A DNA stretch of 64,000 bases. It comes from Gemmatimonadota bacterium. Its GTDB lineage: Bacteria; Gemmatimonadota; Gemmatimonadetes; Gemmatimonadales; GWC2-71-9. The stretch covers positions 1 through 64,000 of the forward strand of contig QHVB01000025.1 in the NCBI GenBank assembly GCA_003222195.1, given 5' to 3'. The stretch's first letter is position 1, and every line of letters begins with the position of its first letter. This document shows positions 15,493 through 64,000 of the stretch, in pieces. The notes beneath the pieces were generated by a model. The model worked only from the letters and a program-made list of their open reading frames with translations. It was not told where the DNA came from and searched no databases. The translations under genes and the position numbers were made by a program.

Positions 15493-16367
15493 TACAATCG
15501 CAGCTGCTCGAGGGCGACGACGCGCGTGGCGCCGTCATCGGCTCGGAGCGTGACGCGCTCCCGGAAGATGTCGATGGAGACGACCCGCTCGTCCCCCACG
15601 GAGGTTTTGACGGTCTTGCCTTCCTTTGGGAAACGCTTGCGCTGCTGCACGTAGAAGTCGTGCTCGTAATGCAGGCAGCACAGCAGGCGGCCACACGGCC
15701 CGGAGATCTGCACGGGGTTCAACGACAGCCCCTGGGCCTTGGCGAGCGAGAGGCTGACGGGTCTTCCCTCGGGCAACCAGCTCGCAATGCACAGTTGGCG
15801 GCCGCAGCGCCCGATCCCATCGAGCCGCTTGGCCTCGTCCCGCGCGCCGATCTGGCGCAGCTCGATCCGCGTGCGAAACAGACCGGCCAGATCGCGCACC
15901 AGCGCGCGGAAGTCTACCCGCTGGTCGGCGGTGAAATAGATCGTGAGCTTGCGCCGGTCCCACTGCCACTCGGCGTCGGAGACCTTCATCGGCAGGTTGT
16001 GCTGGCGTACCCGGTCTCGCACCGTGCGGCGGACTTCATCCTCGTTGATGCGGAGCTCCGCGGCGGTCCGGCGATCGTCGGGGGTCGCGATGCGGACGAT
16101 GGACTTCCGGGGCTCGGGGCTCGGGGCTGGGGGCTCGGAACTTCCCGACTCCCGAGCGCCCAGCCCCGAGTCCCCACCGCACGCGCCGCATCGTTGGCAT
16201 TTCTTCTCGGCGATTCCACCCAACGCCGAGACGACGCCAAAGTCCTGCCCACGCTCGACCTCGACGATGACCGGGACCTCGAGGCGGAGTGGGGAGGAGT
16301 CTTCGGACGGCCAGGTGAAATATTCTCGCCGGTTCCCTTTGAACCGGACTTCGATGACAGACGTCAA
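15492..16367 (-). CDS. ricT: PSP1-domain protein (RicT/YaaT-like)
   Basis: A 291-residue PSP1-family protein. In Bacillus the RicT protein works with RicA and RicF in mRNA processing; here the role is inferred. Conserved blocks are present: VIVEVERGQDFG near the N-terminus, VRIATPDD, and the Cys pairs C188/C193 (RCGRQLC) and C225/C230/C231 (CGRLLCC). An extra CxxCxxC (C57, C60, C63) precedes an in-frame insertion at residues 65-87 encoded by an inverted word repeat. The start is TTG, one base after the accA stop. The context dnaE-accA-ricT-metG is a housekeeping run. Confidence 0.85.
   Translation of the reverse strand: MTSVIEVRFKGNRREYFTWPSEDSSPLRLEVPVIVEVERGQDFGVVSALGGIAEKKCQRCGACGGDSGLGARESGSSEPPAPSPEPRKSIVRIATPDDRRTAAELRINEDEVRRTVRDRVRQHNLPMKVSDAEWQWDRRKLTIYFTADQRVDFRALVRDLAGLFRTRIELRQIGARDEAKRLDGIGRCGRQLCIASWLPEGRPVSLSLAKAQGLSLNPVQISGPCGRLLCCLHYEHDFYVQQRKRFPKEGKTVKTSVGDERVVSIDIFRERVTLRADDGATRVVALEQLRL
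16109..16175. repeat. Inverted word repeat inserted in frame in ricT
   Basis: The arm at 16109-16138 repeats GGGGCTC words and the arm at 16144-16175 carries their complement (CCCGAGCGCC, CAGCCCCGAGTCCCC). Together they encode the low-complexity residues 65-87 of RicT, between conserved blocks. Confidence 0.75.
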
Positions 16368-23829: not shown

Positions 23830-24752
23830 ACTGGGCGGCTGGACTAGCGCTGACGGTTCTGCTTTTCGAACCGACGAACCAGCTAACCGCCCAGACGGAA
23901 GGCTCCGTCCTCACTGTCCTTCCTGGCTCCACCCGCTCAGCCGGACTGGGCGGCGCCGGAGTCGCGCTCGTGGGCGAAGCCGGAGCGATGTTCGCCAACC
24001 CCGCCGGCATCGCGACGATTCACCATCTCAGTCTGGAAGGATCGTACGAGCCCTACCTGGCCGGGACTGCCGTGTCGGCCGCGGCCCTCGCGCTGCGCGT
24101 CAGTCGCTGGACGTGGGGCGTCGGAGCCCAGGCGCTCGACTATGGATCGGAACCGGAGATCGTGCCCGACCCCGCGACCGGCGGGCGGCGCGGCACGCCC
24201 ACGGGAGCATCGTTTCACCCCTACGAGGCGCTGGCGACGACGTCGTTCGTCTATCGTCACGGTCTCGCGGCGTTCGGGGTCACGGGGAAGTACGATCGCC
24301 AGCAGATCGGCTCCGCGGTGAGTGACGCGTGGGCCGGCGACGTCGGCGTGGCGATCGCGGTCTTCGATATCATGGCGTTCGGAGTGAGCGTCCAGAACCT
24401 GGGCGGCGATCTCGGCAACGGCGCGCTGCTACCGCGGCGGACGCGCGCGGGACTGACACTCAACTATACCGATCCACAGGGCACGTACCGGCTGCTCACC
24501 ACACTCGAGGGGCAGTGGACGCGCGATCGCCGCGTTGTGCTCGTCCAGGGGATCGAAGGCGGGATCGTCACCGGCGGCGTGGGGCTCGTCGGCCGGCTGG
24601 GATACGCCACACGCCCGGCGGTCACCGATGCGTCGCGTCTGACGTTCGGCGGCGGCGTCGTGCTGGGGCATCTGGCGATGGACTATGCGTTCCAGGCGTA
24701 TGACGCGCTGGACGGTGGGACTCATCGCGTGGGACTTCGATGGACGCCCTGA
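23826..24752 (+). CDS. Putative outer-membrane beta-barrel protein (PorV/UPF0164-like)
   Basis: A 308-residue protein with a signal peptide (cleavage near LTAQT) and then the pattern STRSAGLGGAGVAL-GEAGAMFANPAG, typical of PorV/PorQ and UPF0164 barrels. Alternating hydrophobic strands fill the rest and it ends in HRVGLRW. PorV-type proteins can help secretion, but no type 9 secretion gene is seen here, so the role is open. Coupled by ATGA to the protease gene before it. Confidence 0.65.
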   Translation: MNWAAGLALTVLLFEPTNQLTAQTEGSVLTVLPGSTRSAGLGGAGVALVGEAGAMFANPAGIATIHHLSLEGSYEPYLAGTAVSAAALALRVSRWTWGVGAQALDYGSEPEIVPDPATGGRRGTPTGASFHPYEALATTSFVYRHGLAAFGVTGKYDRQQIGSAVSDAWAGDVGVAIAVFDIMAFGVSVQNLGGDLGNGALLPRRTRAGLTLNYTDPQGTYRLLTTLEGQWTRDRRVVLVQGIEGGIVTGGVGLVGRLGYATRPAVTDASRLTFGGGVVLGHLAMDYAFQAYDALDGGTHRVGLRWTP

Positions 24753-25855
24753 CCGAGCGCGCGCGACCCCGCTGGGGACGCCTGCTGAAGCGGATCCTAC
24801 TGATCGGCGTGGGGGCGGCCGCCGCTGGCGTGGCGCTGATGCTGATCGTCAGCGCCGATGCACGCTACATCGCCCGGGCTGGAGTTGAAGAGGCCCGGCT
24901 GCTGCTCGGTCGCCGTGCGATCGATAAGCTGCTTGCCGACTCCGCGACCCCGGCGCCCCTGCGCCAGCGCCTGGCGCTCGTCCTCGCGGCCCGGGCGTAC
25001 GCGGCCGATTCGCTCGGCCTGGCGGTGGGGAAGACGTACACCACGTACGTCAACGTGGGTCGCGACACCCTCTTGCTCGTGCTGTCGGCGAGCCGGCGCG
25101 ACAAGCTCCACGAAGTCACGTGGCAGTATCCGATTGTCGGCGTGGTTCCGTACAAAGGCTTCTTCAAAGCGGCGCGCGCGCGCCGCGAAGCCGATCGGCT
25201 CGAGGCGCAGGGCCTCGATGTCTTTCTCCGGCCGTCTGGTGCGTTCTCGACATTGGGCTACCTGAGCGATCCGCTGTTTTCGACGGCGATGAGTCGCGAC
25301 ACCATGGAGCTCGTCGCGACGGTCATCCACGAGTTGGCGCACAACACCCTGTACGTGAAGAGCCAGACGCCGTTCAACGAGAGCTTCGCCAGCTTTGTCG
25401 GGTACCGCGGCGCGGAGGCGTTCTTTCGCTCGCGGCACGACACGCTGGATGCCAAGCGTGCGGCGGCGCGCTGGCGCGACGAGCGCACCCTCGACGTCTT
25501 CTACGCCGAGCTGGCGCGGCGTCTCGACTCGGCGTACGCGGAGCCGTTGGGCGGGGAGCGTCTCGAGCGAGTGCGGACGACGTTGTTCGGGTGGGCGCGC
25601 GATCAATTCCGCGGGCCGGTCGGGCAGTCGCTCGAGACCTATGATTGGCGGTGGTTCGCGCAGGCGCCGCTCAACAATGCGGTGATCATCGCCGAGCGCC
25701 TCTATCGGATGAATCTGAATCTGTTTGATGAGATCTATCTACAGAACAATGCGGACATCGCGGAAACGATTCGGGCGATTCAGATCCGCGTCTTCACGCA
25801 GCCGGGCGACCCGTACCAGGCACTGTATTCTCGACCGGGGATGAAGGTGGAATAA
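24740..25855 (+). CDS. Putative zinc aminopeptidase (Aminopep family, PF10023-like)
   Basis: A 371-residue membrane-anchored protein. A helix at about 20-38 anchors it. The zinc site is H197-E-L-A-H201 followed by E214 (FNESFASFVG), which is the hallmark of predicted aminopeptidases of this family. Substrate is unproven. The start overlaps the previous gene by 13 bases. Its stop codon TAA is followed immediately by the left arm of the four-helix-bundle element. Confidence 0.8.
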   Translation: MDALTERARPRWGRLLKRILLIGVGAAAAGVALMLIVSADARYIARAGVEEARLLLGRRAIDKLLADSATPAPLRQRLALVLAARAYAADSLGLAVGKTYTTYVNVGRDTLLLVLSASRRDKLHEVTWQYPIVGVVPYKGFFKAARARREADRLEAQGLDVFLRPSGAFSTLGYLSDPLFSTAMSRDTMELVATVIHELAHNTLYVKSQTPFNESFASFVGYRGAEAFFRSRHDTLDAKRAAARWRDERTLDVFYAELARRLDSAYAEPLGGERLERVRTTLFGWARDQFRGPVGQSLETYDWRWFAQAPLNNAVIIAERLYRMNLNLFDEIYLQNNADIAETIRAIQIRVFTQPGDPYQALYSRPGMKVE

Positions 25856-25942
25856 TCGGTGGTCAAGAAACGACTGCGGCGGTCGGGCGGTCGAACAACA
25901 GAAGCGGCGGTCGGGCGGTCAAGAAGCAAATGCGGCGGTCAA
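25856..25942. repeat. Left word-repeat arm of the four-helix-bundle element
   Basis: About three imperfect units built from GCGGCGGTC, GGGCGGTC and AAGAAGCAAAT-like words. It is the inverted partner of 26352-26467. An in-frame ATG at 25930 lies in this arm but the conserved protein starts at 26005. Confidence 0.9.
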
Positions 25943-26004
25943 ATGCGACGGCCTGCGTGAATCTGATTAGCCTCCCCCCAGGTCCCGTTCTATTTCTCTC
26001 CTTC

Positions 26005-26355
26005 ATGATGCCGTATGAGCGACTCCATGCGTGGAAGGCCTGCGATGATCTCACGGTTGCCGTCTACAAAGCGACGGAGAAATTCCCACGTCACGAATTG
26101 TATGGATTGACGTCTCAAGCGCGACGGGCGTCGTTCAGTTCTGCAGCCAACATCGTAGAAGGGTCCGCAAAACGTGGCTCTCGTGAGTTCCGAAGATATC
26201 TGGACATCAGTATAGGGTCGTTATCGGAAGTAGCATACGCTTTGCATGTGGCAAAGCGACTCGATTACTTGTCGGTGGAGGAATGGCGTGCACTCGATCA
26301 GCTGCGTTCGAACGCGAGCAAGCTCACTTGGGCCTTATGCCGGTCCCTGAGTTGA
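26005..26355 (+). CDS. Four-helix-bundle protein (S23/IVP family)
   Basis: A 116-residue protein with the family blocks YERLHAW, VYKATEKFPRHELYGLTSQ, RRASFSSAANIVEG and SIGSLSEVAYAL. Relatives are encoded in intervening sequences of 23S rRNA and related folds include the Avd accessory protein of diversity-generating retroelements; the biochemical role is unknown. My hand count over 26041-26280 gives 124 G/C of 240, against about 77% in a 60-base line of the upstream gene, which suggests transfer. The stop TGA is made by the first bases of the right arm (TTGACCGCC). Confidence 0.85.
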   Translation: MMPYERLHAWKACDDLTVAVYKATEKFPRHELYGLTSQARRASFSSAANIVEGSAKRGSREFRRYLDISIGSLSEVAYALHVAKRLDYLSVEEWRALDQLRSNASKLTWALCRSLS

Positions 26356-26467
26356 CCGCCGCATTTGCTTCTTGACCGCCTCGACCGCCGCCTTTTGTTT
26401 TTGACCGCCGCCTTTGTTTTTTGACCGCCCGACCGCCGCTGTTGTTTCTTGACCGCCAGACCGCCGA
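26352..26467. repeat. Right word-repeat arm of the four-helix-bundle element
   Basis: About four to five imperfect units of GACCGCC words separated by short T-rich spacers (TTTTGTTTTTGACCGCC type). It ends where the gdhA stop codon begins. Inverted partner of 25856-25942, longer by one or two units. Confidence 0.9.
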
Positions 26468-27745
26468 TCAGTTCCCGCGCAGTCGCTCAGCATCTGCAAC
26501 TCGCTGTAGCGCGATGCCGTAGGCGGCAGTTCTAAACGTCACCTTCTTTTCCTTGGCGAGATCCCGCACGGAGACATAGGCCTTCGTGATCGTGGCTTTC
26601 AGCTCCCGGTTCACTTGCTCGTGCGTCCACCGATACTGCTGGAGGTTCTGCGCCCACTCGTAGTAGCTGACGGTCACTCCGCCGGCGTTGGCGAGAAAAT
26701 CGGGGATCACGGCGATGCCGCGCTCCTGGAGAATGAGGTCGGCGGTAGGGGTCGTCGGTTCGTTCGCGCCTTCCACGACGACTTTGCAGTCGACGGTCTT
26801 GGCATTCGCTTCCTTCGTGATGACACCGCCCAGCGCGGCCGGCACCAGCCAATCGCAGGGAATCGTCCACAGCTCCTCATTGGTGATCCGTTTGCCGCCA
26901 CTCCATTCGGGGACCGGCTTCCCATGGGCGACGTGCGCTAGCAGTCCCGGAACGTCGAGCCCCTTGTCGTTGTAAACCCCACCCTCGACGGAGCTCACTG
27001 CGATGACCTTGGCGCCCGCCTCGCTGTCGAGCAGGCGCGCGAGGTGACTGCCCACGTTGCCGAAGCCCTGGATCACGACGCGCCCGCCCTTGACCGGAAT
27101 CCCAAAGTCGCGCGCGTATTCCTGCATGACGTACATCACGCCGCGCCCCGTCGCCTCTTCACGACCCAGCGAGCCACCCAATGCCACCGGCTTTCCCGTG
27201 ACGACGGCGGGGCTGTAGCCCTGACGGCTCGAGTACTCGTCGAGGATCCAGGCCATCACTTGTGCGTTGGTATTGACGTCCGGGGCAGGGATATCACGGT
27301 AGGGACCGAGCACGATCGCGATCCGTTGCGTGAACCGGCGCGTCAGACGCTCGAGCTCGAGCTTGGACAGCTTCTTGGGATCGACGGTCACGCCGCCCTT
27401 CGCGCCGCCGAAGGGGATATCCATCAGCGCGGTCTTCCAGGTCATGATCGCTGCCAGCCCGAGGACTTCGTCGTGATCCGCCTCTGGGTGGTACCGGATT
27501 CCGCCTTTGCACGGGCCGCGCGCGCCGTTGTGCTGAATGCGGTAGCCGGTGAACACCTCGATGCGCCCGTCGTCCATCCGCACCGGCACCTCGACCTGCA
27601 CCTCGCGGAACGGCGACATGAGGATTTTCCGCATGTACGCTTCGAGGTTGATCAGGTCGGCGGCACGATCGAACTGGCTTTGGACGATCGCCCGTCCCGA
27701 CATCGGCGCACGACTCGGGCGCGGCGACTGGTCAGGGGCAGTCAT
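26468..27745 (-). CDS. gdhA: Glutamate dehydrogenase (Glu/Leu/Phe/Val family)
   Basis: A 425-residue enzyme interconverting glutamate and 2-oxoglutarate plus ammonia. It shows GPCKGGIRYHP, the catalytic-lysine segment PFGGAKGGV, and the Rossmann motif GFGNVGSH. The length fits hexameric bacterial GDH. The ATG at 27745 lies close behind a cloverleaf-like palindromic repeat (27753-27826), and the GGAG that could act as ribosome site is at the repeat's edge. The TGA stop abuts the right arm of the four-helix-bundle element. Confidence 0.94.
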   Translation of the reverse strand: MTAPDQSPRPSRAPMSGRAIVQSQFDRAADLINLEAYMRKILMSPFREVQVEVPVRMDDGRIEVFTGYRIQHNGARGPCKGGIRYHPEADHDEVLGLAAIMTWKTALMDIPFGGAKGGVTVDPKKLSKLELERLTRRFTQRIAIVLGPYRDIPAPDVNTNAQVMAWILDEYSSRQGYSPAVVTGKPVALGGSLGREEATGRGVMYVMQEYARDFGIPVKGGRVVIQGFGNVGSHLARLLDSEAGAKVIAVSSVEGGVYNDKGLDVPGLLAHVAHGKPVPEWSGGKRITNEELWTIPCDWLVPAALGGVITKEANAKTVDCKVVVEGANEPTTPTADLILQERGIAVIPDFLANAGGVTVSYYEWAQNLQQYRWTHEQVNRELKATITKAYVSVRDLAKEKKVTFRTAAYGIALQRVADAERLRGN

Positions 27746-29036: not shown

Positions 29037-30389
29037 ATGGATCGAGACCAATTGCTCCGCGAGCTGAACGAGTTTCTGCGAATTCCCTCGGTCTCAACGT
29101 TGCCCGCACACAATCAGGATTGCCGCGCCGCCGCCGAATGGGTCGCCGCCGCACTGCGACGCATCGGATGTCGCGACGTCGAATTCCTTGGCAGCCAAAC
29201 GCATCCCGTCGTCTGGGGCAAAGGGCCTGACGTGCCGGGCGCGCCGACCTTACTGATCTACGGCCACTACGACGTGCAGCCACCCGATCCGCTCGCGGAG
29301 TGGACGACGCCGCCCTTCGAGCCGACGCAGCGGGACGGCCGGATCTACGCGCGCGGTGCCGCGGACGATAAAGGGCAGGTCTTCTGCCTGCTGCAGGCGA
29401 TCGCCGCGTCCCCGCGTCCGGGCGTCAACTTCCGCTTCCTCATCGAAGGCGAAGAGGAGTACGGCTCCAAGGTCTTGTTCGATTTGCTGAAGCGCGAGCC
29501 GCAGCGCGTGCGCGCTGACGCGGTGCTGGTGGCCGACATGTCGTATGTCGCGCCCGGTTGGCCCGCGGTCTACACGACGCTGCGTGGGCTGTGTTACGCC
29601 GAGATCACGGTGCGGACGTCCAAGACGGACCTGCACTCCGGGGAATACGGCGGCGCCGCTCCGAACGCACACGAGGAATTGTGCCGGCTGCTCGGTCGTT
29701 TGAAAACCGCAGACGGCAAGATCCACATCCCGGGCCTCTATGGTCCCGTGAAGCGGCCCTCAAAGGCCGAGCTTGCCGCGTGGAAGAAATTGCCATTCAA
29801 CGAAAAGGATTTCCTCACCAAACGCGTGCAGGGGAAGGGGCTCGTCGGTCTGAAGCAGGCGTCGGTCCTCGAGCGTCTCTGGGCACTGCCGACGTTCGAG
29901 ATTCACGGCATTCTCGGCGGCTTCACGGGGGAGGGTGCGAAGACGGTTATTCCTGCCGAGGCGACCGCGAAAGTGAGCATGCGGCTCGTGCCCAACCAGA
30001 AGCTGGCGACGGTCGAGCGCCAGCTGGTGGCTGCCGTAAAGCGCTTCGCGCCGAAATATGTGACCGCGAGCGTGCGATTTCTTCACGGGGCAGATCCGGC
30101 GCAGATCAAGCTCAACAGCCCAGCGTTCAAGCTGCTGGACCAGGCTTTCAAGGACGTCACGGGGCGGGGCAGCGTCCCGGCGCGCGCCGGCGGATCGATC
30201 CCCGTCGTGCCGGCGCTGGCATCGGCCGGGGCGCCCGTGATTCTCACCGGCATCGGGTTGCCCGATGACCGGCTCCACGCGCCGAATGAGAAGCTCGAGC
30301 TGAAGCAGCTCTGGGATGGGATCGAGGTGTTCCGGCGGTTCTACGAGCTGCTCGGGAGTCAGGAGTCAGGAGTCAGGAGTCGGGGCTGA
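29037..30389 (+). CDS. M20 family dipeptidase/peptidase
   Basis: A 450-residue metallopeptidase of the carnosinase/CPG2 type. Zinc ligands and catalytic residues are visible in YGHYDVQP, RGAADDKGQ and EGEEEYGS, in the standard order, and a dimerisation domain lies in the middle (about 190-310). It probably cleaves short peptides in the cytoplasm; no signal peptide is present. The final residues (SQESGVRSRG) and the TGA stop are encoded by the GGAGTCA repeat arm starting at 30354, so the native C-terminus was probably near ELLG. Confidence 0.9.
   Translation: MDRDQLLRELNEFLRIPSVSTLPAHNQDCRAAAEWVAAALRRIGCRDVEFLGSQTHPVVWGKGPDVPGAPTLLIYGHYDVQPPDPLAEWTTPPFEPTQRDGRIYARGAADDKGQVFCLLQAIAASPRPGVNFRFLIEGEEEYGSKVLFDLLKREPQRVRADAVLVADMSYVAPGWPAVYTTLRGLCYAEITVRTSKTDLHSGEYGGAAPNAHEELCRLLGRLKTADGKIHIPGLYGPVKRPSKAELAAWKKLPFNEKDFLTKRVQGKGLVGLKQASVLERLWALPTFEIHGILGGFTGEGAKTVIPAEATAKVSMRLVPNQKLATVERQLVAAVKRFAPKYVTASVRFLHGADPAQIKLNSPAFKLLDQAFKDVTGRGSVPARAGGSIPVVPALASAGAPVILTGIGLPDDRLHAPNEKLELKQLWDGIEVFRRFYELLGSQESGVRSRG
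30354..30389. repeat. Left word-repeat arm (GGAGTCA words)
   Basis: Four GGAGTC(A) words at 7-base period, then CGGGGCTGA. It codes for the last residues of the M20 peptidase on the plus strand and for the stop of the four-helix-bundle gene on the minus strand. TGACTCCC recurs at 30395-30402. Confidence 0.9.
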
Positions 30390-30807
30390 TTTTCTGACTC
30401 CCAGGCCCGGTCTCGAGCCGCCTGCGCAGCGATCGGATCAATCCACCAAGCATCTTGGCGATGGCATTGCACGAATCCAAGAGTCGGCGCTGATCGTCGT
30501 CAGCGATGTATTCCAGCCGTCGCGCTATCAGGACCTGAGTTTCGACTTCGCCTAGCGATCCGACGGCAACTGAGAGGTGGCGCAGGTAATCTCCGGTCCT
30601 CGACCTTCCATGTCCCTCCGCAATATTCGAAGGCACCGAAACGGCTGCGCGCCGCAGCTGGTCAACCAGCGAGTAGCGCTCTTCCCTGGGAAAAGCGGCG
30701 GTAATGCGATAGATCGCTACGACAAGGTCCATCGAGTCCTGCCACACGACAAGATCGCGGTACCCACGTACGGGTCCGGATGTTCGACTGGCGGCGGTCG
30801 TGGCCAT
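30373..30807 (-). CDS. Four-helix-bundle protein (S23/IVP family), second copy
   Basis: A 144-residue protein with the family blocks YRDLVVWQ, IYRITAAFPREERYSLVDQ, RRAAVSVPSNIAEG and AVGSLGEVETQ. It is related to the protein at 26005 but clearly divergent, so it is not a recent copy. The ATG at 30807 is preferred to a TTG at 30834. The C-terminal residues and the TGA come from the left repeat arm. It sits opposite in strand to the M20 gene and converges on it. Function unknown. Confidence 0.85.
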   Translation of the reverse strand: MATTAASRTSGPVRGYRDLVVWQDSMDLVVAIYRITAAFPREERYSLVDQLRRAAVSVPSNIAEGHGRSRTGDYLRHLSVAVGSLGEVETQVLIARRLEYIADDDQRRLLDSCNAIAKMLGGLIRSLRRRLETGPGSQKISPDS

Positions 30808-30878
30808 TGCTGAACCTGAGACGCGCTCCCGCAAACCACCGCACCATTCCTACGCTGGTTGGAGCGTTTGGACGCGCC

Positions 30879-30908
30879 CTGACTCCAGACTCCTAGCTCC
30901 CGACTCCG
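30879..30908. repeat. Right word-repeat arm (GACTCC words)
   Basis: Three GACTCC words within 30 bases, inverted relative to 30354-30389. It encodes the C-terminal GVGS and the TAG stop of the oxidoreductase on the minus strand. Confidence 0.85.
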
Positions 30909-34049: not shown

Positions 34050-34061
34050 AGGTGCTCCTTC

Positions 34062-34145
34062 ATTGCGGATTTCGGATTGTGGATTGCGGATTCTCACGGT
34101 GGGCTTCGCACCCAATCCGCAATCCGCAATCGACAATCCGCAATT
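34062..34145. repeat. Inverted word repeat (GCGGATT words) between pdhC and lpdA
   Basis: The arm at 34062-34093 repeats ATTGCGGATT-like words; the arm at 34112-34145 carries AATCCGC words in inverted order, with an 18-base loop. It fills the intergenic space between the pdhC stop and the lpdA ribosome site and would form a long hairpin in the operon mRNA. Confidence 0.85.
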
Positions 34146-35442
34146 ACAACAGCATCGCCAGCGGATTCTCGAGCATCTGTTTCAGCGTTTTCAGGAACAC
34201 CGCCCCGGTCGCACCGTCGATGACGCGGTGATCACAGCTCATCGTCAAGCGCAGGCGCCGCCGTACGACGACGCGATCGCCGTCGGGGATCGCCTTGGCG
34301 ACGATGCTGCCGATCGCGACGATGCCGGCTTCGGGCGGGTTGATCACCGCGGTGAATTGATCGATGTCGAACATGCCCAGGTTCGAGACGCTGAACGTGG
34401 CGCCGGTGTATTCGTCGGGCTTCAGGCGGCGATTGCGGGCCCGCCCCGCGAGCTCGCGCGACTCGGCGCCGATTTCCCGCAGGTTCTTCTGGTCTGCGTT
34501 GCGGATCACCGGGGTGATGAGCCCGTCCTCGATCGCGACGGCCATCCCGATGTGAACCTCGTTCCAGTAGCGGATGTGATCGTCCTGGAACCAAGCGTTG
34601 CAGGCGCGGTGCTGGACCAGCGCCAGCGCGACGGCTTTGATGATGATGTCGTTGAACGAAATCTTCCCGCCCGCTTCGCCGAGCTGCTGGTTGAGCGCTT
34701 CACGCGCTTCCACGGCGCGCTCCATGTCGATCTCGGTGGTGAGAAAGAAATGCGGGATCGGCCCGATCGAGGCGGCGAGCCGCTTGGCGATCGTCTTGCG
34801 GATCTGCGTGAGCGGAACGTCTTCGTAAGGCACACCGGTGCGCGGTGCGCGGTCCGCGGTGCGCGGGACCGCAGGGGCCTGAGCGGCAGATGCTGTGGCG
34901 GCAGATGCTGTGGGAGCCGCCTCAACGTCCCGCTTGATTACTCGCCCACCTGGGCCCGATCCCTGAATGAGTTTCAGGTCCACGCCGGCATCCTTCGCCA
35001 GCCGCTTGGCGAGCGGTGACGCTTTGACTCGCGTGGCGTCAGCTGGCGCGATGGGTGGTGACGGGTTCGCCGGTATCGACGGCGCGGCGCGAGGCGAGGC
35101 GGATGGCGGTGCCGGAGCAGGTTTGTCTTCCCGCGCACCGCTCACCGCGGACCGCTGACTTTTCGGCGCAGGCGCACCCGCCCCGTCCCCATCCACTTTC
35201 TCACCAGGCTTTCCGATCCACGCGACCACATTCCCGACCGGCACGGTGGTGCCCTCGGGCACCATCACCTTCAGCAGCTGCCCGTCGGCCCGGGCGACCA
35301 GCTCCATGACGGCCTTGTCGGTTTCGACCTCGGCGAGGGTGTCGCCCGACTTCACCGGGTCCCCCTCGTGCTTGGTCCACTTCACGAGGCGCCCTTCCTC
35401 CATCGTGGGCGAGAGCGCCTCCATGTGGACTTTCGTGGCCAT
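34144..35442 (-). CDS. pdhC: Pyruvate dehydrogenase E2, dihydrolipoamide acetyltransferase
   Basis: A 432-residue E2 core protein. One lipoyl domain (1-80) has the lipoyl-lysine K43 in ETDKAVMEL. A Pro/Ala linker leads to the E3-binding domain (about 138-173, RVKASPLAKRLAKD), a second linker, then the catalytic domain (about 205-432) with the active-site DHRVIDGA. Both linkers contain an arm of an inverted word repeat (residues 95-105 and 191-202). It transfers acetyl groups to CoA. The gene follows pdhB on the same strand. Confidence 0.95.
   Translation of the reverse strand: MATKVHMEALSPTMEEGRLVKWTKHEGDPVKSGDTLAEVETDKAVMELVARADGQLLKVMVPEGTTVPVGNVVAWIGKPGEKVDGDGAGAPAPKSQRSAVSGAREDKPAPAPPSASPRAAPSIPANPSPPIAPADATRVKASPLAKRLAKDAGVDLKLIQGSGPGGRVIKRDVEAAPTASAATASAAQAPAVPRTADRAPRTGVPYEDVPLTQIRKTIAKRLAASIGPIPHFFLTTEIDMERAVEAREALNQQLGEAGGKISFNDIIIKAVALALVQHRACNAWFQDDHIRYWNEVHIGMAVAIEDGLITPVIRNADQKNLREIGAESRELAGRARNRRLKPDEYTGATFSVSNLGMFDIDQFTAVINPPEAGIVAIGSIVAKAIPDGDRVVVRRRLRLTMSCDHRVIDGATGAVFLKTLKQMLENPLAMLL
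34837..34872. repeat. Word-repeat arm in second E2 linker
   Basis: GGTGCGCGGTGCGCGGTCC-type words, encoding residues 191-202 of E2. Inverted partner at 35130-35158. A separate direct repeat (GCGGCAGATGCTGTG twice) lies just downstream at about 34883-34912. Confidence 0.75.
35130..35158. repeat. Word-repeat arm in first E2 linker
   Basis: CCGCGCACCGCTCACCGCGG and ACCGCTGAC, the complement of the words at 34837-34872. It encodes residues 95-105 of E2, on the other side of the E3-binding domain. Confidence 0.75.
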
Positions 35443-44299: not shown

Positions 44300-44302
44300 T
44301 AC

Positions 44303-44376
44303 TGGGGCCTGGGGGCTAGGGGTTGGGGCTTGGGGATGAGAATCCCTAGGCCCCAGCCCCTAGCCCCGAGCCCCCG
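44303..44376. repeat. Inverted word repeat (GGGGCT words) between glycosyltransferase and kinase genes
   Basis: The arm at 44303-44335 repeats TGGGGCCTGGGGGCTAGGGG-like words; the arm at 44343-44376 carries the complement, with a 7-base loop. It encodes the last residues (AGARG) and the stop of the histidine kinase. Confidence 0.85.
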
Positions 44377-61717: not shown

Positions 61718-62449
61718 TCACCGGGGGGCGAGAGATGCAACAACGTCGGACCGTCGGACTGCCTGCCCTGAGCGAAGCGAAGGGGTCGGACCGTCGGTCG
61801 GTCTAAGGCTTTCTCCCCAATTGGCGACAATTGCTGAGGTGACTTCTTCGAATCGTACAGGTCGCCCAAACACAACGGCGAGCGTGGTTTCTCCCGTACC
61901 TCCCGCCACGCGTTCCTGAGATCCATCCAACAGGATCGAACCGTGCTGCAAGAATGCGTCCCCCCGCCGCACCTGGGCCGATCCGACGAGCTTGCGGCCA
62001 TTCACGAGAATCTCGCCGCCGGCGGGTTGAGCAAAGCAGGACGCTGGACGGGCGGATGGGCGGATGGACGGATGGGCCGGAGCGAGCACCGCATCGACGC
62101 CAAGCGAGCGCAATGCTCGCGCGAGCCGTGTGTGGATCTCGCAGTAGGCCTTCCGAAGCGAACCGAAGACTGCAATGGGTGCGACGACCGCGTATGTGAC
62201 TTCGTGTTCGTGCCACACAGCCTGTCCACCTGTAGGCCGGCGAATGATCGGCATGTCCTGGAACTGGATCGGCTGATTTCGTCCCACTGACAACGTCGGA
62301 GGATCCCAGCGATAGAAGCGGAGATAGGCGCCGCCATGGCACGCTACTTCTTCCAGCAGCGTTTCATCCATCGCCATGTTGTATTCGCCAGACCGCCCCA
62401 TGGCATCGACGATCAGGTTCCAACGCGGCCCATCCGCCCATCCGCCCAT
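61718..62449 (-). CDS. lplA: Lipoate-protein ligase A family protein
   Basis: A 243-residue BPL/LplA ligase that attaches lipoate or octanoate to lipoyl domains. The substrate-binding RRPTGGQAVWH and the catalytic K153 in NGRKLVGSAQ are intact. Residues 124-135 (APAHPSIRPSARP) are encoded by an inverted word-repeat arm just before the conserved CF-GEI block, and the last residues by another repeat (61745-61803). Its ATG is part of a repeat word. The gene follows gcvP by 7 bases, so it may lipoylate GcvH. Confidence 0.85.
   Translation of the reverse strand: MGGWADGPRWNLIVDAMGRSGEYNMAMDETLLEEVACHGGAYLRFYRWDPPTLSVGRNQPIQFQDMPIIRRPTGGQAVWHEHEVTYAVVAPIAVFGSLRKAYCEIHTRLARALRSLGVDAVLAPAHPSIRPSARPASCFAQPAGGEILVNGRKLVGSAQVRRGDAFLQHGSILLDGSQERVAGGTGETTLAVVFGRPVRFEEVTSAIVANWGESLRPTDGPTPSLRSGQAVRRSDVVASLAPR
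61745..61803. repeat. Word repeat with CCCTGAGCGAAGCGAAGGG core
   Basis: GTCGGACCGTCGGAC words flank the core at 61766-61784, which is an imperfect palindrome seen widely in environmental bacteria. The words GGACCGTCGG recur after the core. It overlaps the 3' end of lplA. Confidence 0.7.
62047..62080. repeat. Word-repeat arm inside lplA
   Basis: Repeats GGGCGGATG words and forms an almost perfect inverted match to 62425-62459. Distance between arms is about 345 bases. Confidence 0.85.
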
Positions 62450-62459
62450 CCGCCCGTCA
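62425..62459. repeat. Word-repeat arm at the gcvP/lplA junction
   Basis: CCCATCCGCCCATCCGCCC words. On the minus strand it holds the gcvP stop (TGACGGGCGG) and the lplA start ATG. Confidence 0.85.
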
Positions 62460-64000
62460 GACCTCAGCGTACGCCTCCACTGGAGGGCAGGTGCACACCA
62501 GGTTGCGGTCCCCGAACGCGGCGTCGATCCGGCCGACCGGCGGCCAGATCTTGTGCTCGCGGGTCGCGGCCGTCGGGAAACCCGCGCGCTCCCGGGCATA
62601 CGGACGGTCCCAGGTATCCGCCAGCAGGTCGGCGAGCGGATGCGGCGCGTTTTTCAGCAGGTTGTTGTCGCGATCCGCTTCGCCAGTCTCGATCTCGCGA
62701 ATTTCCCCGCGAATCGCGATCAACGCGTCGACGAAGCGATCAAGCTCGACCTTCGGTTCGCTCTCCGTCGGCTCCACCATCAGTGTGCCGGCGACGGGGA
62801 ACGAGACCGTCGGCGGATGGAAACCGTAATCGATGAGCCGCTTCGCGATGTCCTCCACATCGACCCCGGCAGAGCTCTTGAAGGGGCGGGTGTCGATGAT
62901 GCACTCGTGTGCGACGAGGCCGTGCTGCCCGGCGTACAGCAATTCGTAGTGACCGCCTTCCTGCAGCCGCTTCGCGATGTAGTTCGCGTTGAGGATCGCG
63001 ACCTTCGTCGCGAGCGTCAGACCATCCCGGCCCATCATGACGATGTAGGCCCACGAGATCGGCAGGATGGACGGACTCCCCCATGGTCCCGCCGACACGG
63101 TGCCCGCGCTCTCGGCCAGCGGAACGCCGACGTCGATAACCGGATGCGTGGGGAGATGCGGTGCCAGATGCTCGGCGACCGCGATGGGTCCCATGCCGGG
63201 GCCGCCGCCGCCGTGCGGAATACAGAACGTCTTGTGAAGATTGAGATGGCAGACGTCGGCGCCGATGTCGCCGGGCCGGCAGAGCCCGACCTGCGCGTTC
63301 ATGTTGGCGCCGTCCATGTAGACCTGGCCGCCGTGCTGATGGACGATCTTGCAGATCTTCCTGATGGAGGCTTCGAACACACCGTGTGTGGAGGGATACG
63401 TCACCATCAACGCGCCGAGCGTGGCGCTGTACTCCTTGGCCTTGGCCTCGAGATCCGCGACGTCGATGTTGCCCTGCGCATCGGTCTTCACCACGACGAC
63501 CTGCATGCCCGCCATGACCGCGCTGGCCGGATTCGTGCCGTGCGCCGACTGCGGAATGAGGCAGGTGGTGCGATGCACCTCTCCACGATGCTTGTGATAC
63601 GCGCGAATGACGAGGAGCCCGGCAAACTCACCTTGTGAGCCGGCATTCGGTTGCAGCGAGACCTTCGCGAACCCCGTGATTTCGGCGAGCCACTCCTCGA
63701 GCTGGCGGAACAGCCTGGCGTAACCCTGCGCCTGCGAGCGGGGCGCAAAGGGATGCAGGCGGTTGAAGCCGGCCCAGGTGATCGGAATCATCTCGGTCGT
63801 GGCGTTGAGCTTCATCGTACACGAGCCCAGCGGGATCATCGCCGATGTCAGCGAGAGGTCGCGATCTTCGAGCTTCTTGAGATAGCGCAGCATCTCCGTC
63901 TCGGAGTGATGCGTGTTGAAGACCGGATGCGTGCAGAACGGCGTGGTGCGGGACAGACCCTCCGGGATCGCCGCCGGGGCCTCCCGCGCGGCGCCGGCAC
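62457..64000 (-). CDS. gcvP: Glycine dehydrogenase (decarboxylating), C-terminal half, partial
   Basis: The last 514 residues of the glycine cleavage P-protein; the gene continues beyond the right edge. The frame is open before the ATG at 63893 and encodes [20 protein letters not shown], so that ATG is internal. The PLP lysine lies in [17 protein letters not shown], and the C-terminal domain ends [11 protein letters not shown]. It decarboxylates glycine and passes the aminomethyl group to GcvH. It is followed by lplA. Whether gcvP is one chain or split as gcvPA/gcvPB cannot be seen. Confidence 0.94.

Follow-up and report, generated by a model that had tools for sequence, protein, structure and literature searches.

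An S23 gene between inverted arms of short tandem words in a Gemmatimonadota genome: a candidate mobile element with gene-less satellites

The gap between a convergent aminopeptidase and gdhA gene pair in the window (the whole 64,000-nucleotide stretch of DNA analysed here) is occupied by a gene of the S23 (23S rRNA IVP) family lying between two inverted arms that are built from copies of the same short word. The features of the locus are:

24740-25855, + strand: flanking aminopeptidase gene (PF10023), with its TAA stop directly ahead of the element
25858-25943, + strand: left arm, made of GGCGGTC words with an 8-nt unit GGCGGTCG and longer linkers, the G-rich strand reading inwards
25914-25942, + strand: left copy of the inner 29-bp perfect inverted repeat
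26005-26355, + strand: S23 four-helix-bundle gene, starting at 26005 or 26008, with a PF05635 match at 26017-26325
26352-26380, - strand: right copy of the inner 29-bp perfect inverted repeat
26352-26466, - strand: right arm, GACCGCC words
26468-27745, - strand: flanking gdhA gene (ELFV dehydrogenase)

Because the convergent stop codons lie at 25853-25855 (aminopeptidase) and 26468-26470 (gdhA, minus strand), the element fills the whole gap from 25856 to 26467, and the S23 open reading frame terminates with the TGA of the first word of the right arm (TTGACCGCC, 26352-26360). The exact fit between the stops, the stop codon provided by the arm and the 29-bp inner repeat had all been claimed in the original prediction and are borne out by the coordinates. 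The same holds for its description of arms made of the same words around an S23 gene of low G+C content. The arms are inverted copies of each other over 67 nt (87 % identity), including the 29 nt at 100 %, though the spacing of the words is mixed and there is no clean 8-nt period. The gene has a G+C content of 53.8 % versus 65.5 % for the window and matches the PF05635 profile with an E value of 2e-27 (95.7 bits versus a curated cut-off of 33.8), and its protein matches TIGR02436 ('four helix bundle protein') at 95.5 bits (cut-off 24). The listed start of the open reading frame, at 25930, falls within the left arm; the family match and the sequences of relatives point to one of the ATG codons at 26005 and 26008. 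The solved structure nearest in sequence is 2GSC (XCC0516 of Xanthomonas, E 1.3e-20), described as five four-helix bundles in a title cited in PMC3936711. No match for the S23 gene was found among the PADLOC anti-phage defence profiles.

Inverted arms were scored by reverse-complementing the right flank of a gene and aligning it to the left flank, and a score of 14 was taken as the threshold. The locus scores 40, and scores of at least 14 were found at 0.4 % of 3000 random positions in the same genome; the inverted arms are not due to chance. A profile search found 12 PF05635 matches in the genome, most of them between inverted arms. Among 68 distinct genes from this genome and 60 relatives, the median arm score was 20, versus 9 when flanks were paired across loci and 9 in the direct orientation, with 61 of the 68 genes outscoring 95 % of mismatched flank pairs and 58 reaching a score of at least 14. 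The same was true of 59 out of 76 genes found using one query protein of the genome, nearly all of them in other phyla (by record title Gallionellales, Thiobacillus, Planctomycetes, Acidobacteria, Chloroflexi, Cyanobacteria, Verrucomicrobia, Firmicutes and others, with a few Gemmatimonadetes included). In 131/136 elements both arms have their G-rich strand reading inwards, and the distances between arms and gene vary little across nearly all loci and phyla.

The word differs from one S23 locus to another (GGAGTCA, GGTGTCT, GGGGCCT, GACGCACC, GGGGACG, GGCGGTTA, GGCGGTC, GCGGCGTG and CCAATGAT). The words had been called locus-specific in the original prediction, but they are specific to an element lineage and the system is far wider than the single locus for which it was proposed. 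The window itself includes a second element:

30352-30377, + strand: left arm of the second element, 7-nt word GGAGTCA
30445-30759, - strand: second S23 gene (PF05635 match, E 8e-38)
30878-30903, - strand: right arm of the second element

An M20 dipeptidase is lengthened at its C-terminus (..GSQESGVRSRG) by one arm of this second element (30352-30903). Unusual arms were also seen in a Pirellulales genome (G062). At locus L298 (G062:C440) the array changes from (GGATAGT)n to (CCACTGA)n within the one locus, forming a long composite palindrome, and the S23 genes or gene fragments at L278 and L265 have arms resembling (TCAGTTA)n, which is complementary to the TAACTGA heptad of the Beggiatoaceae.

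The original prediction proposed that the gap be compared in related genomes, where an empty site with joined stops would reveal an insertion. The aminopeptidase-gdhA gap (site H) is empty in six congeners (G009, G008, G007, G002, G006 and G003), in most of which the stops of the convergent genes overlap in CTAG (GACTAG), and insertion or loss of the element at this site is therefore real. Elsewhere the site is filled (G005), contains a decayed copy (G004), carries the orthologous S23 gene inverted between the same words (G024) or holds a gene-less pair of arms made of a different word, GCGGATT (G034). As the nearest relative at site H, G009 (93 % identity in the right flank, 84 % in the left), is empty, alleles have probably also been moved by local recombination. 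Filled and empty states were found at four further sites, namely site I (the second element in the window, absent from G003, G005 and G006), E, D and B. TA or CTA is present at both ends of the filled sites H (in G005) and E (in the present genome, G000), versus GACTAG in empty sites, and is not found at site B. This hints at a short target duplication, of the sort that is constant in classical insertion sequences and MITEs.

At site C, the flanks of L027/L108 (G005:C8) and L003 (G000:C12) are 100 % identical, and other loci of these two species are approximately 80 % alike. Either the region was transferred recently or binning has assigned a contig to the wrong genome.

The words are not confined to the S23 genes. 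Several gene-less arrays and palindromes lie in the window:

16104-16185: compact gene-less palindrome, word GGGGCTC
34061-34145: gene-less palindrome, 7-nt word GCGGATT, resembling the gene-less pair in the G034 gap
34833-34870: array of the word GCGGTGC, whose inverted counterpart lies approximately 300 nt away, at about 35129
44302-44375: gene-less palindrome that matches the arms at S23 locus L003 of the same genome, 7-nt word GGGGCCT/GGGGCTA

In addition, two inverted 8-nt arrays (GGCGGATG) at 62042-62082 and 62421-62465, approximately 340 nt apart, surround the initial portion of an open reading frame that probably encodes a lipoate ligase; one is in frame inside this gene and the other is located at the end of a neighbouring gene that reads like gcvP. 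Across 464 kb of the genome, 30 more word arrays were counted beyond the S23 loci of the window. Several are palindromic, and the arrays are closer to the S23 words of their own genome than to those of other genera (p 0.005). Elsewhere the dispersal is also specific to a genome: allowing one mismatch, the S23 word GGATTCA has 100 hits at approximately 30 places in the Gallionella genome G061 versus 0-12 in nine other genomes, and GGATAGT has 121 hits in G062 and at most one in other genomes. The locus word GGCGGTC was not commoner in genomes with the site H gene, and counts of GGGGACG and GGGGAAG follow the site E arms only roughly. G061 has only two S23 genes, and five of its gene-less palindromes share a 27-nt core in either orientation, as would be expected of copies of a mobile unit. 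Some of the G061 palindromes are in frame in genes that read, by eye, like dnaE, aroA and lpd. Insertion had been suggested to be tolerated only after stop codons, and this is incorrect. As word arrays occur in frame inside genes, selection in a compact genome better accounts for the position next to stops.

Gene and arms differ in how they evolve. Purifying selection on the S23 gene is strong (pN/pS 0.04-0.33, with pS mostly saturated), and the word sequence is replaced quickly. Below approximately 70 % protein identity the arms lose their resemblance to one another, whether the same or different sites are compared, and after such turnover both arms of one element carry the new word. The arms within one element are more alike than the same arm of orthologues, for example L004 versus L100. 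That the word is set by the host at insertion was suggested by site D in G008, where GGAATGA contains the host stop codon, but this is not general. Since word similarity falls with protein identity in much the same way at the same and at different sites, turnover in place is sufficient. The period is more stable than the word. At site A, two arm types (GACGCACC and GACGCCGA) accompany orthologous genes, and the period is 8 in both type I and type II although their words differ. In a well-supported protein clade (clade 1), 18/19 arms have a 7-nt unit, as do 69/74 arms of clade 1 relatives in other phyla, and in the sister clade 2 the unit is 8 nt in 16/31 arms and 7 nt in 1/31. The word period depends on the protein clade. 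As the counts are over related sequences, they do not translate directly into significance.

We are inclined, on balance, to assign the locus to a widely distributed family of mobile (or long mobile) elements, with an S23 ring protein that binds palindromes of tandem words and with non-autonomous satellites. The layout of the element, its distribution over phyla, the presence or absence of the whole unit at orthologous sites, the selection on the gene, the joint turnover of the arms, the link of period to clade and the dispersal specific to a genome were all observed; both the binding of the words by S23 and the movement of the element are inferred. If S23 forms a ring of five four-helix bundles, as in its nearest solved relative 2GSC, the ring may bind its own element's G-rich tandem words, recognizing their spacing more than their sequence, and the spacing of its subunits would then set the word period. 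An analogy is the trp RNA-binding attenuation protein TRAP, an 11-mer ring that reads regularly spaced short repeats in an RNA leader. It is an analogy only, as the TRAP fold is unrelated to that of S23, the ring has eleven subunits and the target is a leader RNA. The word palindromes, probably as single-stranded DNA hairpins at replication, would be copied or inserted by host enzymes and would spread by host replication and recombination with S23 acting in trans, and gene-less palindromes of the same word would be its satellites. An exchange of sequence between the arms, by gene conversion or inversion, would keep them matched and sometimes flip the gene. We know of no catalytic domain in S23. 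No transposition event was seen among the genomes compared, no two S23 genes within this genome are closely related, and the orthologous insertions are old.

It could instead be argued that S23 has no part in the word palindromes, which would arise and multiply through replication slippage and template switching, the gene being a passenger sheltered within them. Gene-less arrays and palindromes do far outnumber S23 genes, and polymerase slippage has been proposed for bacterial 7-nt repeats (discussed in PMC4692102 and PMC4679880). However, a passenger gene does not sit well with a word period that tracks the protein clade, with arms whose distances from the gene are alike at almost every locus and in almost every phylum, or with an S23-arm word that is scattered through its own genome but almost missing from others, and we consider this explanation unlikely.

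S23 genes have been reported in rRNA intervening sequences (PMC4990558), and the 23S rRNA intervening sequences of Leptospira and Coxiella resemble the element in having an S23-family gene within inverted arms, a patchy presence and a G+C content below that of the host. An IVS-like layout at an intergenic site, as originally predicted, is thus supported by an S23 gene lying between inverted arms. The elements described here differ in being intergenic rather than within the 23S rRNA gene, in having arms of tandem words that vary by locus instead of one unique stem, and in being present many times per genome with gene-less satellites. The arms might pair in a transcript to be cut by RNase III, with the S23 protein acting on RNA, and a Coxiella intervening sequence with a 28-bp stem is cut by RNase III in vitro (PMC4990558). 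The gene family and the layout would fit such an RNA element, but the site lies between protein genes and a search of the window against Rfam returned no match. Moreover, on the sense strand A.C mismatches between the arms (225) are not exceeded by G.U mismatches (167), and no sign of selection for an RNA stem was found in them. The predicted excision from RNA is accordingly unsupported, and an RNA element of this kind appears improbable.

Very improbable, too, is a domesticated element, such as a terminator or regulator between convergent genes, kept because it benefits the host. The strong purifying selection would suit such a role, as would site A, which is filled in 9/10 genomes of the genus, but the other sites are empty in most congeners with no visible damage to the flanking genes, and the words and their orientation change freely. 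Finally, PF05635 and Avd, the accessory protein of diversity-generating retroelements, are homologous (PMC10053308), but a remnant of such a retroelement can be set aside almost entirely, as the genome, at 99.8 % completeness, has no reverse transcriptase (PF00078) and the element is therefore not a retroelement of a known kind.

The preferred reading, a mobile element whose S23 protein binds tandem-word palindromes, resembles the REPIN/RAYT system. RAYT is a low-copy, vertically kept gene flanked by inverted repeats that are common to many gene-less palindromes, and its paralogues within a genome are distinct (PMC3116915). Here, too, dispersed gene-less inverted pairs have the same arms as a protein gene, and they may stand to S23 as REPINs do to RAYT. 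However, the arms are 7- or 8-nt tandem words and not REPs, and the gene belongs to PF05635. Gallionella G061 has S23 genes and satellites but no Y1 (HUH) transposase (PF01797), and so this is not a RAYT/REPIN system; the two PF01797 matches in G000 are located elsewhere. We have therefore filed the element as an S23-encoding, IVS-like element that behaves like REPIN/RAYT, while holding open a class of its own.

The words also recall the heptad repeats reported in Nostoc (GGGGA(C/T)T) and Xanthomonas (GGGAATC; PMC4692102), the Beggiatoaceae (TAACTGA; PMC4679880) and Geobacter (GGGACCG; PMC2700814). Those repeats, the cyanobacterial STRRs among others, are likewise 7 nt long, mostly G-rich, tandem and intergenic or sometimes within genes, convergent pairs have been reported in Xanthomonas, and similar words form S23 arms here (GGGGATG in Chloroflexi and (TCAGTTA)n in L278). 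Those reports, in contrast, draw no connection to S23 genes, and literature searches in the open text of PMC turned up no paper that links S23 genes to arms of tandem words.

S23/IVP genes ('four helix bundle protein') occur widely but, to our knowledge, have no known function, and bacterial heptad repeats, reported since the cyanobacterial STRRs, have no agreed maker. MacGregor (PMC4679880) asked for a repeat-binding protein, and S23 is a concrete candidate for it. With the repeats as arms of S23 genes and a period that follows the protein clade, each of the two puzzles gains a testable partner in the other. The finding would also add a REPIN/RAYT-like system based on a ring protein that has no known catalytic domain. 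Going further, we tentatively raise the possibility of a new class of mobile element lacking a known transposase, in which the ring may recognize a spacing of 7 or 8 nt rather than a sequence, the words would be free to change quickly in both arms, and much of the scattered heptad-repeat DNA of bacteria would be its satellites.
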